The position numbers were made by a program, and so were the translations under genes. Shown in pieces: positions 30,146-41,098 of a DNA stretch of 64,000 bases. The DNA is from Alphaproteobacteria bacterium (GTDB lineage: Bacteria; Pseudomonadota; Alphaproteobacteria; Rhodobacterales; Rhodobacteraceae). Numbering within the stretch: position 1 is the first letter of the stretch; each line of letters begins with the position of its first letter. Under the pieces are notes generated by a model that was not told where the DNA came from, did no database searches, and saw only the letters and a list, made by a program, of their open reading frames with translations. The stretch lies in NCBI GenBank assembly GCA_030433335.1, contig JAUILL010000002.1:62001-126000 (forward strand), in the 5' to 3' direction.

Positions 30146-30925
30146 TCAGTAGGCCCGATCGACCATCATTTTCTTGATCGACGCGATTGCCTTGGCAGGG
30201 TTCAGACCCTTGGGGCAGGTTTTCGCGCAGTTCATGATGGTGTGGCAGCGGTACAGCTTGAAGGGGTCTTCAAGGTTGTCCAGACGCTCGCCAGTCGCCT
30301 CGTCGCGGCTGTCGATCAGCCAGCGGTAGGCGTGCAGCAGCGCTGCTGGCCCAAGGTAACGGTCGCCGTTCCACCAGTAGCTGGGGCAGCTGGTCGAGCA
30401 GCAGGCGCACATCACACACTCATACAGGCCGTCCAGCTTCTCTCGGTCTTCGATCGACTGCTTCCACTCTTTGGCGGGGGTGTTTGTCTTGGTTTCGAGC
30501 CAAGGCATGATGCTGGCGTGCTGCGCGTAGAAGTGCGTCAGGTCGGGGATCAGGTCGCGAACCACGGGCATGTGGGGCAGCGGGTAGATCTTGATGTCGC
30601 CTTTGACTTCGTCAGTGCCATAGATACAGGCCAGCGTGTTAATGCCGTCGATGTTCATGGCGCAAGAACCACAGATGCCTTCGCGGCACGAGCGGCGGAA
30701 GGCCAGCGTGGGGTCCATCTCGTTCTTGATCTTGATCAGAACGTCCAGAATCATCGGACCACAGGTGTCCATATCGACAAAGTAGGTATCGACGCTGGGG
30801 TTTTTGCCGTCATCAGGGTTCCAGCGATATATCTGCACGGTACGCAGGTTCGTCGCGCCCTCGGGCTTGGGCCAGGTTTTGCCTGTGGTGATACGGCTAT
30901 TCTTGGGCAGAGCCAATTCAACCAT
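30146..30925 (-). CDS. sdhB: Succinate dehydrogenase iron-sulfur subunit
   Basis: [54 protein letters not shown]. Confidence 0.98.
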
Positions 30926-30937
30926 GGGTCTCTCCTC

Positions 30938-31267
30938 TCAGAGAAGCTGTTTCGCGATACAATCATTGGCGCCAGGCGCCTTGATCAGGTCCAGAATGCG
31001 GAGCGTCTGCTGTTCGCCGATCGCCCCACCCGTCTGGGTAAAGTTCGAAATATCCGCGGCGGGGGCTGTCTGGATCACACAAGAGGTGACCACATCAACC
31101 TGCGCCGCAGGAATATAGTTTGCAACCACCGGACGGACAGCCTGATAGGCATCCATCCGGTCAGCCGGTGCAGGGGCCTGCGAGACGGGCGCTTGCGATC
31201 CGCAAGCCGCCAGCCCCAGCAGCAATCCGGCGGGAAGCCCCGCGCGGTATGCCCCTGCAAGACCCAT
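30938..31267 (-). CDS. Putative lipoprotein, located between sdhA and sdhB
   Basis: 109 aa; lipobox LLLGLAAC; TGATG start/stop overlap with sdhA. Confidence 0.75.
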   Translation of the reverse strand: MGLAGAYRAGLPAGLLLGLAACGSQAPVSQAPAPADRMDAYQAVRPVVANYIPAAQVDVVTSCVIQTAPAADISNFTQTGGAIGEQQTLRILDLIKAPGANDCIAKQLL

Positions 31268-33072
31268 CAGAAGGTACGTGCCTTGGGCGCGATCTTCTTG
31301 ATCGAAATGCCGCCCTGCTCTTCGGTAGTGAGCGGGTCGGTGATGATCGGACGGTAGGACAGATCAACCTTGTTGCCATCGACGCGGCTGACGGTGTGCA
31401 CACGCCAGTTTTCGTCGTCGCGCTCCGCATAATCCTCGTGCGCGTGGGCGCCGCGGGATTCGTGACGAGCTTCGGCACCGTAGATGGTGGCCAGCGCGTT
31501 CGGCATCAGGTTGGTCAGTTCCAGCGATTCCATCAGGTCGGTGTTCCAGACCAGGCTGCGGTCGGTGACTTTCAGGTCGCCCATCTTGCCAGCGATCGCG
31601 GTCATGTCCTCGACACCCTGCTTCAGGGTTTCCGCGGTACGGAAGACGGCAGCGTCGCGCTGCATGGTCTTCTGCATTTCCAGACGCAGTTCTGCGGTGG
31701 GGGTGCCACCCTGCGCGTTGCGGATGCTGTCGAACCGATCGAAGCACTTCTCGACCTGAGCCACGTTGGTCGCGGGGATCGCTGCCTCTTTGTCGACGAC
31801 AGCACCGGCGCGGATCGCGGCGGCACGGCCAAAGACCACGAGGTCGATCAGCGAGTTCGAGCCCAGACGGTTCGCACCGTGCACCGAAGCACAGCCCGCT
31901 TCGCCCACAGCCATCAGGCCGGGAACAACCGCAGTCGGGTCTTCGGAGGTCGGGTTCAGCACTTCGCCCCAGTAGTTGGTGGGAATGCCGCCCATGTTGT
32001 AGTGCACGGTCGGAATGACGGGGATCGGCTCTTTGGTGACGTCGACGCCAGCAAAGATACGTGCCGATTCCGAAATACCGGGCAGACGCAGGTGAAGCGC
32101 TTCTGCGGGCAGGTGCGACAGGTTCAGGTGGATGTGGTCGCCTTCGGCGCCAACACCGCGACCTTCGCGGATTTCCATGGTCATACAGCGCGAAACGTAG
32201 TCACGCGGCGCGAGGTCTTTGTAGTTCGGAGCATAACGCTCCATGAACCGCTCGCCTTCGCTGTTGGTCAGGTAACCGCCTTCGCCGCGCGCACCCTCGG
32301 TGATCAGACAGCCTGCGCCGTAGATGCCGGTGGGGTGGAACTGAACGAATTCCATGTCCTGCAGGGCCAGACCCGCGCGAGCCACCATGCCGCCACCGTC
32401 GCCGGTGCAGGTGTGTGCCGAAGTCGCCGAGAAGTAGGCACGGCCGTAACCGCCAGTCGCCAGAACAACCATCTTCGCGTTGAAGACGTGCATGGTGCCG
32501 TCGTCCAGCTTCCAGCAGACAACGCCGGTGCAGACGCCATCGTCGGACATGATCAGATCCAGCGCGAAGTATTCAATGTAGAATTCCGCGTTGTTCTTGA
32601 CCGACTGGCCATACAGGGTGTGCAGGATCGCGTGACCGGTCCGGTCAGCCGCCGCACAGGTACGCTGTACGGGCGGGCCTTCGCCGAACTCGGTGGTGTG
32701 ACCACCAAAGGGACGCTGGTAGATTTTGCCTTCTTCGGTACGGCTGAAGGGCACGCCATAGTGCTCCAGTTCGTACACAGCGGCGGGTGCTTCGCGTGCG
32801 AGGTATTCCATCGCATCGGTGTCACCCAGCCAGTCCGAGCCTTTTACAGTGTCGTACATGTGCCACTGCCAGCTGTCGGGACCCATGTTCCCCAGCGAAG
32901 CAGCGATACCGCCCTGCGCCGCAACAGTGTGCGAGCGGGTCGGGAAAACCTTGGTCACACAAGCGGTGCGCAGGCCCTGTTCGGCCATGCCAAGGGTTGC
33001 ACGAAGGCCAGCGCCACCAGCGCCAACCACCACCACGTCATAATCGTGGGTTTCGTATTCGTATGCAGCCAT
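31267..33072 (-). CDS. sdhA: Succinate dehydrogenase flavoprotein subunit
   Basis: [51 protein letters not shown]. Confidence 0.98.
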
Positions 33073-33087
33073 CTGCGCCTCTCTGAC

Positions 33088-33459
33088 TTAAAGTGCGATG
33101 CGGATGATCGAGAAGATGCCGGTTGCCGCAGCGGCGTAGCACAGGCAGTTCATAGCAATGATCGAGTACTGGCCGGCAGCACCGTGAACATAGTCTTCGA
33201 TCAGGACCTGAAAACCGTTCTTAAAGTGCATGAAACCAACACCAAGGGTCAGGATCGCCACGATCGCGGGGAACGGATGCTGGTAGTACGCAACCATTTC
33301 TTCGTAGCTGCTGCCCAGTGCCGGACCAAAGGTGAAAACAAACAAGGGCACAAGGATCAACAGGCCGATCGAGCTGACCTTCATGTTCCAGAAATGTGCG
33401 ACGCCCGACTTTGCCGAGCCCATGCCAGTGGCGCGCTTGCGGGGGGTAAGATATGCCAT
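33088..33459 (-). CDS. sdhD: Succinate dehydrogenase membrane anchor subunit
   Basis: TM protein with LGVGFMHFKNGFQVLIEDYVHG; directly upstream of sdhA. Confidence 0.93.
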   Translation of the reverse strand: MAYLTPRKRATGMGSAKSGVAHFWNMKVSSIGLLILVPLFVFTFGPALGSSYEEMVAYYQHPFPAIVAILTLGVGFMHFKNGFQVLIEDYVHGAAGQYSIIAMNCLCYAAAATGIFSIIRIAL

Positions 33460-33473
33460 CAGACGCTCTCCTC

Positions 33474-33866
33474 TTATGCGACCAGCATGATGATCCAGGT
33501 CAGGACGGTCAGGGCGGCAGACCCGATGACCACGACCCAGCTCAGGCTTTCAGCGGTTTTGATGTCCAGAGCGATGACCTGATCCCAGATCAGGTGACGC
33601 ACGCCGGCAAGCGTGTGGTACCACAGGCCCAGAACGGACAGCGCCATAACCAGATCGCCAAACCAGCTGGTGATCACACCGTTGGCGAATTCATAATATT
33701 CGGGGCCCGACGCGGCCGCCAGAAACCACCAAACGGTCATCAGTGCTGCAACCAGCAGGGCGTTTCCGGTGATACGGGTCAGGATCGACGTAATCGCAGT
33801 AATCGGCAAGCGATAGATCGTCAGGTGCGGTGAGAGCGGGCGGTTGCCCCGATTCACATCAGCCAT
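33474..33866 (-). CDS. sdhC: Succinate dehydrogenase cytochrome b556 subunit
   Basis: NRPLSPHLTIYRLPITAITSILTRITG, YHTLAGVRHLIWD. Confidence 0.96.
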   Translation of the reverse strand: MADVNRGNRPLSPHLTIYRLPITAITSILTRITGNALLVAALMTVWWFLAAASGPEYYEFANGVITSWFGDLVMALSVLGLWYHTLAGVRHLIWDQVIALDIKTAESLSWVVVIGSAALTVLTWIIMLVA

Positions 33867-34006
33867 AAGTCTTCCTTTCGGTTGCGCAGCCGACTCCCAA
33901 GGTGGCCGCGGTGCCTCGGGCAGATTGATAGCCGATTTTCGCGATCTGTCACGGCTCCAACGTGCCGCAGAGCAGCATTTTATCGTGTTTCCGTCATATT
34001 TTTTTG

Positions 34007-34043
34007 AAACGTGATCACACCGACAATAAGTGTGATCACGTTT
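34007..34043. promoter_or_regulatory. Paired GTGATCAC palindromes forming a 14-bp-arm inverted repeat, upstream of sdhC
   Basis: AAACGTGATCACAC-cgacaataa-GTGTGATCACGTTT; GTGATCAC at 34011-34018 and 34032-34039 (21 bp apart). Confidence 0.75.
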
Positions 34044-34048
34044 TAGCG

Positions 34049-35080
34049 TTAACGGGGAATCAGAACCCAGTAGTCCAGATCCAAGAGTACTTCGCTCAGG
34101 TATTTGCCGTTTTCGCCCTTGAGGCTAAACGGTTCGCCGCCCTTGGTCGCGACCAAACGCAGACGCAGAGCGCCAACACCGGGCGCACTGGTTTCGGCCT
34201 TATCCAGCACTTCGGTCCAGCAATTCACGGTATCGCCGGCAAAGCACGGGTTGGCGTGTGCGCCGCCGTTGATACCCGCAATCATCTGCGCGTTGGCGAG
34301 ACCGTTGAACGACAAAGCCCGCGCCATCGAGATTACGTGGCCGCCGTAAATCAGGCGCTTGCCATCCTCGCGGAAGGTCGCGTCGAAGTGCACCTTGGCG
34401 GTGTTCTGCCAGAGGCGGGTGGCCAGCATATGCTCGGCTTCTTCGATGGTGACGCCATCCACGTGGTCGATCTTCTCGCCCACTTCGTAGTCGGCCCAGC
34501 GATGCTCTTCGCCAGCCAAGGTGAAGTCATAGTTGGTGAAATCCAGACCTTCGGGGATCACCAGATCATCGACCGACAGCACCTTTTTCAGATCAGGCAC
34601 AACAGCTTCGGGCGCAGGCGCGGTCACGTCGCGTTTGCGGACCATCACCCAGCGGACATATTCCATGACCACTTCGTCGTTCTGGTTCAGACCTTGGGTC
34701 CGCACGTAAACCACACCGGTCTTGCCGTTCGAGTTTTCTTTGACGCCGATCACTTCGCTGCGCGAGCGCAGGGTGTCGCCCTCATAGACCGGTTTCAGGA
34801 AGCGGCCCTCAGCATAGCCAAGGTTTGCCACCGCATTCAGCGACACGTCAGGGACGGTTTTGCCGAATACGGTGTGGAACGCGATCAGATCATCCATCGG
34901 CGACTTGGGCAGACCGCTGGCCTGCGCAAAGGCGTCCGAGGAATACAGTGCATGACGGGCAGGATAGAGCGCGTGGTACAGCGCCCGCTCCCCGCCCGAG
35001 ACCGTCCGCGGAACCGCGTGGTCAATCACTTGGCCCACTGCATAATCTTCAAAGAAACGTCCCGCGTTGGTCTTGCTCAT
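34049..35080 (-). CDS. mch: MaoC-family mesaconyl-CoA hydratase (2-methylfumaryl-CoA hydratase type)
   Basis: 343 aa; GRFFEDYAVGQVIDHAVPRTVSGGERALYHALYPARHALYSSDAFA; EMC pathway and mcl2 context. Confidence 0.88.
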   Translation of the reverse strand: MSKTNAGRFFEDYAVGQVIDHAVPRTVSGGERALYHALYPARHALYSSDAFAQASGLPKSPMDDLIAFHTVFGKTVPDVSLNAVANLGYAEGRFLKPVYEGDTLRSRSEVIGVKENSNGKTGVVYVRTQGLNQNDEVVMEYVRWVMVRKRDVTAPAPEAVVPDLKKVLSVDDLVIPEGLDFTNYDFTLAGEEHRWADYEVGEKIDHVDGVTIEEAEHMLATRLWQNTAKVHFDATFREDGKRLIYGGHVISMARALSFNGLANAQMIAGINGGAHANPCFAGDTVNCWTEVLDKAETSAPGVGALRLRLVATKGGEPFSLKGENGKYLSEVLLDLDYWVLIPR

Positions 35081-38729: not shown

Positions 38730-39737
38730 TCATTTCAGGCGGTCCAGCAGGCCCCCTGCCCGCTCGCGCAACATGGCGTCGAAACCTTCGACCGAGAGAT
38801 CTGGCATGTAGCCCAGTTGCGCCGCGATCTGATCTGCGGGTTCAAAGGGCGCATCGACGAACATGTCCCGCGCATCAAGCCGTGCCCGCAGGCCACCGTC
38901 CGTGACTTTGAGTCGATTGTGGAACTTCAACAGACCTCCGGGCACCTTTGCCCTGTGCCTCGCCATCAAAACCTGCTCACGCCGGTGACCGCCGAGCATC
39001 CCCTCAATCATGTCACGTGGAAGATGGGCATAGCGCAGCACCTTGAGCATCCAATGCAGCGGCGTCATCCCATCGAAATGCAGAAGCGCCATCTCTGGCA
39101 CGTAATCCCCTTGAAGCCGCCGGTCTTCTTCCCTGGGTGAGTGAATGCCAATCCGCCAGCCCTGCCGTGTCGGCATCAGGGCTTTGCCCGCTGAATGACC
39201 GGTCAGGCCTTTGGTCAGGAAGCGTGTCGAACGCCAGAATGTCTCTTCGTCATTCTGGAGTTTGCCAAGATAGGGCACGCGAAAGCCGCCTTCGAAGATG
39301 GACATCGGAGTCCCTTCGTTCAGATAGGTCCGCTCCCACGGCTGAATGCGCAGAAACCGGTCCTTGCGTGCATATTCCGAAATCAGCTGACTGACGGGCC
39401 TTTCGGGCATCAGGAACTCGTCTGCATCCAAATGGATGATCCAGTCGGCCGCAGTGCGCCGGTACGCATCCGTCGCGTTCACCCCTTGGCGGCGGGTCTG
39501 TCTCCCATCGGCTTTGCGCACGTTCATGCGGGCCCAGTGATCTTCATCACACCGAATGACGTTGACCCCTTCAACCACCATGAGTTGATCGGCCACCGGA
39601 TCTTCGGGATCATCCAGATAGACATGCACCTCTGTCGCCCCAAGGGACAGGTGCCACCCCACATTGGCCATAACCAACGGTGCGGGCTCTTTGACCGTCA
39701 TGACAACGGACCAACTTATGTTAGCGCCGGACGTCAT
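38730..39737 (-). CDS. Glycosyltransferase family 2 protein
   Basis: SVVMTVKEPAPLVMANVGWHLSLGATEVHVYLDDPEDP; ADWIIHLDADEFL; start uncertain. Confidence 0.82.
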   Translation of the reverse strand: MTSGANISWSVVMTVKEPAPLVMANVGWHLSLGATEVHVYLDDPEDPVADQLMVVEGVNVIRCDEDHWARMNVRKADGRQTRRQGVNATDAYRRTAADWIIHLDADEFLMPERPVSQLISEYARKDRFLRIQPWERTYLNEGTPMSIFEGGFRVPYLGKLQNDEETFWRSTRFLTKGLTGHSAGKALMPTRQGWRIGIHSPREEDRRLQGDYVPEMALLHFDGMTPLHWMLKVLRYAHLPRDMIEGMLGGHRREQVLMARHRAKVPGGLLKFHNRLKVTDGGLRARLDARDMFVDAPFEPADQIAAQLGYMPDLSVEGFDAMLRERAGGLLDRLK

Positions 39738-39765
39738 GCGAATCTTTGTGCAACACCACAAACAC

Positions 39766-39798
39766 TTGTGATCACACGCTCAAAAGCTGTGATCACAA
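39766..39798. promoter_or_regulatory. Paired GTGATCAC palindromes upstream of sucC
   Basis: TTGTGATCACA (39766-39776) and TGTGATCACAA (39788-39798); GTGATCAC cores 39768-39775 and 39789-39796 are 21 bp apart, as at sdhC. Confidence 0.8.
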
Positions 39799-39904
39799 AA
39801 GGCAGAAATATGCCGATTTTCAAGCCTATCACGCAAAAACTCCTTAATACGCTCATCGCTTGGGCGTATATGTACACCGAATTTCAGCAAGATGGGACAG
39901 GTCC

Positions 39905-41098
39905 ATGAACATTCACGAATATCAGGCCAAAGCACTGCTGCGCGAATACGGCGCACCGGTCAGCGACGGCCGCGTCGTGCTCAAGGCCGAAGACGCTAAA
40001 ACCGCTGCTGGTGAGCTTGACGGCCCCCTTTGGGTTGTAAAAGCACAGATCCACGCTGGTGGTCGCGGCAAAGGCACTTTCAAAGAAGCTGACGCTGGTG
40101 AAAAGGGCGGTGTTCGCCTGGCCAAGTCGGTTGAAGAAGCAGCCGAAGAAGCCAAGAAGATGCTCGGCCGCACTCTGGTCACCCACCAGACCGGCCCCGC
40201 CGGCAAGCAGGTGAACCGCATCTACATCGAAGATGGCTCGGACATCAGCCGCGAACTGTACCTCGCGCTGCTGGTAGACCGCGTCTCCAGCCGCATCTCG
40301 TTCGTTTGCTCGACCGAAGGCGGCATGGACATCGAGGAAGTCGCCGCGTCGACCCCCGAAAAGATCCTGTCCTTCTCGGTTGATCCTGCAACCGGCTACC
40401 AGCCCTACCACGGCCGCCGCATCGCGTTCGCTCTGGGTCTGGAAGGCGCACAGGTTAAGCAGTGCGTTAAGCTGATGGGCCAGCTCTACACCGCCTTCGT
40501 CGAGAAGGACATGGAGATGCTGGAAATCAACCCGCTGATCGTCATGGAAGATGGCAACCTCAAGGTGTTGGATGCCAAGCTGGGCTTTGACGGCAACGCT
40601 GTCTACCGCCACGCGGACGTTGCAGCCCTGCGCGACGAAACCGAAGAAGACCCCAAAGAGCTGGCAGCGTCGAAGTACGACCTGAACTACATCGCTCTGG
40701 ACGGTGAAATCGGCTGCATGGTGAACGGCGCGGGTCTGGCGATGGCCACCATGGACATCATCAAACTCTACGGCGCAGAGCCTGCGAACTTCCTCGACGT
40801 TGGCGGCGGCGCCACCAAAGAGAAAGTGACCGAAGCCTTCAAGATCATCACCTCGGATCCCAACGTAAAAGGTATCCTCGTGAACATCTTTGGCGGAATT
40901 ATGCGCTGCGACGTCATCGCAGAAGGCGTAATTGCGGCTGTAAAAGAGGTTGGCCTGCAAGTTCCGCTGGTCGTTCGCCTCGAAGGCACTAACGTCGAAA
41001 AGGGTAAAGAGATTATCAACACCTCTGGTCTCGACGTGATTGCCGCAGACAACCTCAGCGACGGCGCGGAGAAGATCGTTAAAGCAGTGAAAGGTTAA
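39905..41098 (+). CDS. sucC: Succinyl-CoA synthetase (ADP-forming) beta subunit
   Basis: [42 protein letters not shown]. Confidence 0.98.

Follow-up and report, generated by a model that had tools for sequence, protein, structure and literature searches.

Why should a perfect inverted repeat stand between mch and sdhC, and why should its core return, with the same spacing, before sucC? In the window, by which we mean the whole 64-kb stretch of DNA analysed here, the repeat has the form AAACGTGATCACAC-N9-GTGTGATCACGTTT and occupies positions 34007 to 34043, with 14-bp arms around the 9-bp centre CGACAATAA. It holds two self-complementary GTGATCAC boxes whose starts, at 34011 and 34032, are 21 bp apart. 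The first-pass annotation had described a perfect repeat with 14-bp arms about 160 bp upstream of sdhC, two cores starting 21 bp apart, and the same core and spacing upstream of sucC. All of this proved exact: the centre of the sdh pair lies 159 bp upstream of the sdhC start (33866), and the suc boxes start at 39768 and 39789. Our best explanation, to which we attach a high probability from sequence analysis, is that each pair would be a double operator for an AkgR-type regulator of the GntR/FCD kind, which would co-activate sdhCDAB and sucCDAB-lpd. The argument starts from what can be read directly in the DNA: the pairs are there, their spacing and position are fixed, they are almost confined to one family, and a regulator gene that co-occurs with them has a box before it.

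The sdh pair lies between two genes of the minus strand, mch (34049..35080; mesaconyl-CoA hydratase, Pfam MC_hydratase), which ends just upstream of the operator with its stop 6 bp from the end of the repeat, and sdhC (33474..33866; Pfam Sdh_cyt), the first gene of sdhCDAB. Box 1 (34032..34039) is distal and box 2 (34011..34018) proximal to sdhC. The rest of the operon (30146..33459, minus strand) holds sdhD (33088-33459), sdhA (31267-33072), a small open reading frame (30938-31267) and sdhB (30146-30925), the genes being named by sequence resemblance. At the other locus, box 1 (39768..39775), distal to sucC, and box 2 (39789..39796), proximal to it, are separated by 13 bp, as at sdh, and the centre of the pair (39768-39796) is 123 bp upstream of the ATG (39905) of sucC (39905..41098, plus strand), the first gene of sucCD-sucAB-lpd. 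A glycosyltransferase-like gene (38730-39761, minus strand) lies between mdh and sucC in the window and has its intergenic region in common with the suc pair; many relatives have no close copy of this gene between mdh and sucC.

Footprints downstream of the pairs suggest a core promoter for each operon. For sdh this would be GTGACA-N17-TATCAA (33953-33925, minus strand), in which the likely -35 element (33948..33953) belongs to a GTGAC[A/T] motif that most sdhC promoters conserve some 58 nt downstream of box 2, and the possible -10 element (33925..33930) is read from the sequence at a 17-bp spacer. For suc it would be TTAATA-N17-TATATG (39844..39872, plus strand), with conserved blocks at the same place in relatives. 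A consensus promoter scan of the two regions gave no call for either of these core promoters. Between 33920 and 33960, roughly 58 nt past the sdh pair, most relatives conserve the GTGAC[A/T] block together with a stretch rich in A; the block that we read as the sdh -35 region could alternatively be the site of a second regulator.

The signal in this DNA is the pair plus its spacing, the single 8-mer being a weak one. There are 10 copies of GTGATCAC in the window, several of them within genes, and the box alone is not rare partly because, in frame, it would read Val-Ile-Thr (GTG-ATC-ACN). Pairs with up to three mismatches number 3 in the window, against 0.24 expected. A scan of the 4.23-Mb assembly, as proposed at the outset, returned GTGATCAC-N13-GTGATCAC with no mismatch exactly twice, upstream of sdhC and of sucC, so the paired motif is not common genome-wide. 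The sole pair with one mismatch in the whole assembly, GTGATCAC-N13-GTGATCGC (contig C46, L003:1501-1529), has its centre 122 bp upstream of fumC, a class II fumarase by Pfam, and three promoters of the TCA cycle (sdhC, sucC and fumC) thus head the genome-wide ranking of pairs. Further TGTGATCACA sites on contigs C6, C25 and C47 were considered as targets and rejected: they lie within open reading frames and look like background. Comparison of the intergenic DNA with a plasmid collection gave no match. The fumC pair is patchy among relatives, being exact in G043, reduced to one box in G039, a genome of the same genus, and absent from most other genomes checked, and fumC looks like a recent gain to the regulon. 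G043 also carries, on contig C12 (L342:1513-1551), a GTGATCAC pair with a 23-bp spacer, its starts 31 bp or about three helical turns apart, upstream of an open reading frame resembling an outer-membrane protein.

How widely the arrangement is kept was examined in 61 Rhodobacteraceae genomes from 60 genera, in which two boxes were sought at any separation from 4 to 33 bp. The exact pair was present in 51 of the 61, where it almost always has 13 bp between its boxes and precedes sucC and sdhC, so that the conservation at sdh and suc promoters that the first-pass annotation had asked about is borne out; a control with the reversed pattern gave 0 matches in all 61 genomes. Among the 75 pairs listed for these genomes, the spacer was exactly 13 bp in 66. 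Promoter extraction, which took N12 and N13 spacers only, yielded 51 pairs at sucC (48 N13, 3 N12) and 44 at sdhC (42 N13, 2 N12), that is, N13 in 90/95 and N12 in the other 5, and when the fetched regions were scanned with the separation left open from 4 to 33 bp, no exact pair with any other spacing turned up at either gene. The boxes are nearly invariant, the spacer is free in sequence and fixed in length, and the outer flanks mirror each other (TTT-box, box-AAA). Two protein dimers sitting on the same face of the helix would require just this, a spacer rigid in length and free in sequence. The proposal of a shared cooperative operator for TCA operons is accordingly supported in its first part, given the conservation at sdhC and sucC across the family and the copy at fumC, while the cooperative part is deduced from the fixed spacing. 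The sdh pair is the less strictly kept of the two, being degraded or missing in the regulator-bearing genomes G007, G012, G041 and G046.

Outside the family, an N13 pair was found in 1 of the 187 alphaproteobacterial genomes sampled. That pair (G208, L333:992-1020) lies directly upstream of a GntR-like gene whose product is 27% identical to the AkgR candidate described below, and a third near-box, ATGATCAC, is found 20 bp farther upstream. Its place before a GntR-like gene points to a use of paired boxes that predates the role in the TCA cycle or arose independently of it.

Which protein might bind the pairs? AkgR, which we take to be RSP_0981, had been put forward at the start, and that candidacy is now supported by the presence of GTGATCAC among AkgR sites, by the predictions for RSP_0981 and by a co-occurring GntR/FCD regulator with a box of its own. 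The genome has 25 GntR-domain matches, and no GntR gene was found inside the 64-kb window. The candidate, a protein of 219 aa encoded on contig C10 (L032:1054-1713), has an N-terminal GntR winged helix and a C-terminal FCD domain, both above the Pfam cut-offs, which places it in the FCD type of the GntR superfamily. Its nearest solved relative is McbR (4p9f) and its closest named match, at 97% identity, comes from Donghicola eburneus, which makes Donghicola or a close relative the probable origin of the window; R. sphaeroides is not among its best 80 named homologues. In two Rhodovulum species its gene and a sucC pair are about 10 kb apart. Judged from sequence, this regulator is the likely binder of the pairs.

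The distribution of the candidate agrees with that of the pair. Its orthologue, clearly apart from paralogues, is encoded in 51 of the 61 Rhodobacteraceae genomes, and wherever it accompanies a readable sucC promoter the pair is there with at most one mismatch (50/50 genomes; G037, in which sucC appears to begin at a contig end, was left out of this count). Eight readable genomes (G004, G008, G014, G017, G029, G049, G055 and G060) have neither orthologue nor pair; G021, which has no orthologue, was left out of the pair count. The single exception is G019 (91% complete), where the pair is present and the orthologue was not found. On a FumC tree the absences of the orthologue need about five changes, only two of the contrasts being well supported and independent, and the co-occurrence is thus an agreement and not a significant test.

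The regulator's own promoter carries a different arrangement. In this genome an exact GTGATCAC lies 18 bp before the candidate's ATG, and in a set of 81 homologue promoters (the best 80 named ones and one from Paracoccus denitrificans) a single box stands just upstream of the start codon in 75. In 65 of the 81, TTGA[C/T] starts exactly 18 nt before the box, so that the box would lie in the spacer separating the -35 and -10 elements or would cover these elements. A protein bound there would block RNA polymerase, so that autorepression is the natural reading.

From these observations we infer binding, cooperativity and activation at the pairs, autorepression at the regulator gene, and a ligand. 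One regulator dimer would occupy each self-complementary GTGATCAC box and, the boxes being two helical turns apart, two dimers would lie on one face of the DNA, probably touching. From sites some 60-70 bp upstream of the likely -35 elements, they would jointly activate sdhCDAB and sucCDAB-lpd. With the core promoters suggested above, the centres of the pairs would fall near -107 (sdh) and -97 (suc), about one helical turn apart, positions that would suit an activator that approaches RNA polymerase on the same face in both cases. In this genome fumC would be drawn under the same control, and akgR, with its single box over the core promoter, would be repressed by its own product. Whether the number and position of boxes also set the sign of regulation is, in our judgement, evenly balanced: a far-upstream pair at two turns would mean activation of the TCA cycle and a single box placed 18 nt beyond the point where the -35 element of the regulator's own gene begins would mean autorepression, the whole forming a self-limiting switch of the TCA cycle conserved across Rhodobacteraceae.

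It is possible, if unlikely, that the boxes are bound independently, or that the regulator represses at the pairs, with the spacing a historical constraint and not the mark of cooperative activation. Such a reading could draw on the single boxes at the regulator's own gene and at fumC of G039, and on the sign of regulation at the pairs being itself deduced; yet it must accommodate a spacer whose length is almost invariant though its sequence is free, a pair that sits well upstream of the putative core promoters, and the designation of AkgR as an activator in a published report (PMC6365646). We regard as improbable the idea that another transcription factor with the same distribution as the AkgR orthologue, for example a GntR/FCD paralogue, binds the pair. 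The 25 GntR-domain matches provide a pool of such proteins, one of them a paralogue 39% identical to the candidate, but the box nearest that paralogue is the inexact GTGATCGC, whereas the candidate has an exact box in its own promoter, as do 75/81 homologues, and matches the pair in its presence, and the literature ties GTGATCAC to AkgR. The GntR gene near fumC (L026) was also considered as the binder and rejected, an exact box being absent nearby. Finally, that the inverted repeat is an RNA element, whether the mch terminator envisaged by the first-pass annotation or a hairpin stabilising a 3' end, is very hard to credit, since the strong fold of the strand (-26.3 kcal/mol, z -5.2) is of the kind that any two palindrome copies give, and against the closeness of the mch stop to the repeat stand the lack of a T run on the mch strand and hence of the GC-rich stem plus T run of an intrinsic terminator, a terminator scan without a call at the repeat, the same pair upstream of sucC, where the sucC strand has no gene end, and the conservation of the spacing and not of the loop sequence.

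If the pairs are indeed double operators of an AkgR-type regulator, a regulon known from one model phototroph would be shared by most of a bacterial family that is ecologically large. The grammar of the operator (pair versus single box, 21-bp phase) could then predict targets in any Rhodobacteraceae genome, and the cooperativity of an FCD-type GntR regulator becomes directly testable with two short promoters.

Several known systems invite comparison. CRP-type operators (TGTGA-N6-TCACA) have similar half-site letters, but TGTGATCACA has no gap between its half-sites and lacks the six-base spacer, so that a CRP-like site was rejected. No description of the rigid two-box architecture was found in the literature searched, a body that stops short of the primary AkgR study, reportedly that of Imam et al. 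in mBio in 2015. Among GntR regulators of the FadR/HutC type, palindrome pairs at near-constant distance have been described and taken as cooperative; the double sites surveyed there, however, lie between divergent genes, one of them the regulator gene, which here is located elsewhere (PMC4494728). In the FadR subfamily GT and AC are usually 2-3 nt apart (PMC4494728), whereas in GTGATCAC the distance is 4 nt. The LacI-family regulator CceR (RSP_1663) has sdh and mdh among its predicted targets in R. sphaeroides (PMC4344238), but in the comparison of motifs recommended at the outset its [A/G/T]GTT-N6-8-AAC[A/C/T] differs from GTGATCAC, which agrees with AkgR sites. The same GTGATCAC palindrome stands upstream of the gene for PS417_07240, a GntR/FCD regulator 32% identical to AkgR in the deoxyribonate cluster of Pseudomonas simiae, although there one box is reported, in another pathway and another bacterial class (PMC6365646). 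The closest parallel is the AkgR regulon of R. sphaeroides itself. According to two reports, GTGATCAC is among the AkgR sites and AkgR is a GntR-family activator (PMC6365646), and the GntR protein RSP_0981 is the predicted controller of sdh, sucCD and the 2-oxoglutarate dehydrogenase genes (PMC4344238). Here, too, the palindrome lies in promoters, at the sdh and suc operons, in a genome that encodes a GntR-family regulator of this type; motif, targets and regulator family are thus common to both, and the element is very probably of an already known kind, an AkgR-type operator. To that regulon the present analysis adds, for a Donghicola-like genome, the layout of two boxes held 13 bp apart, the lone box in the promoter of the regulator and fumC as a target. 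Possible novelties are that the spacing of the two boxes is invariant across the family, that the pair contrasts with the lone box at the regulator gene, and that fumC has joined the targets in this lineage.
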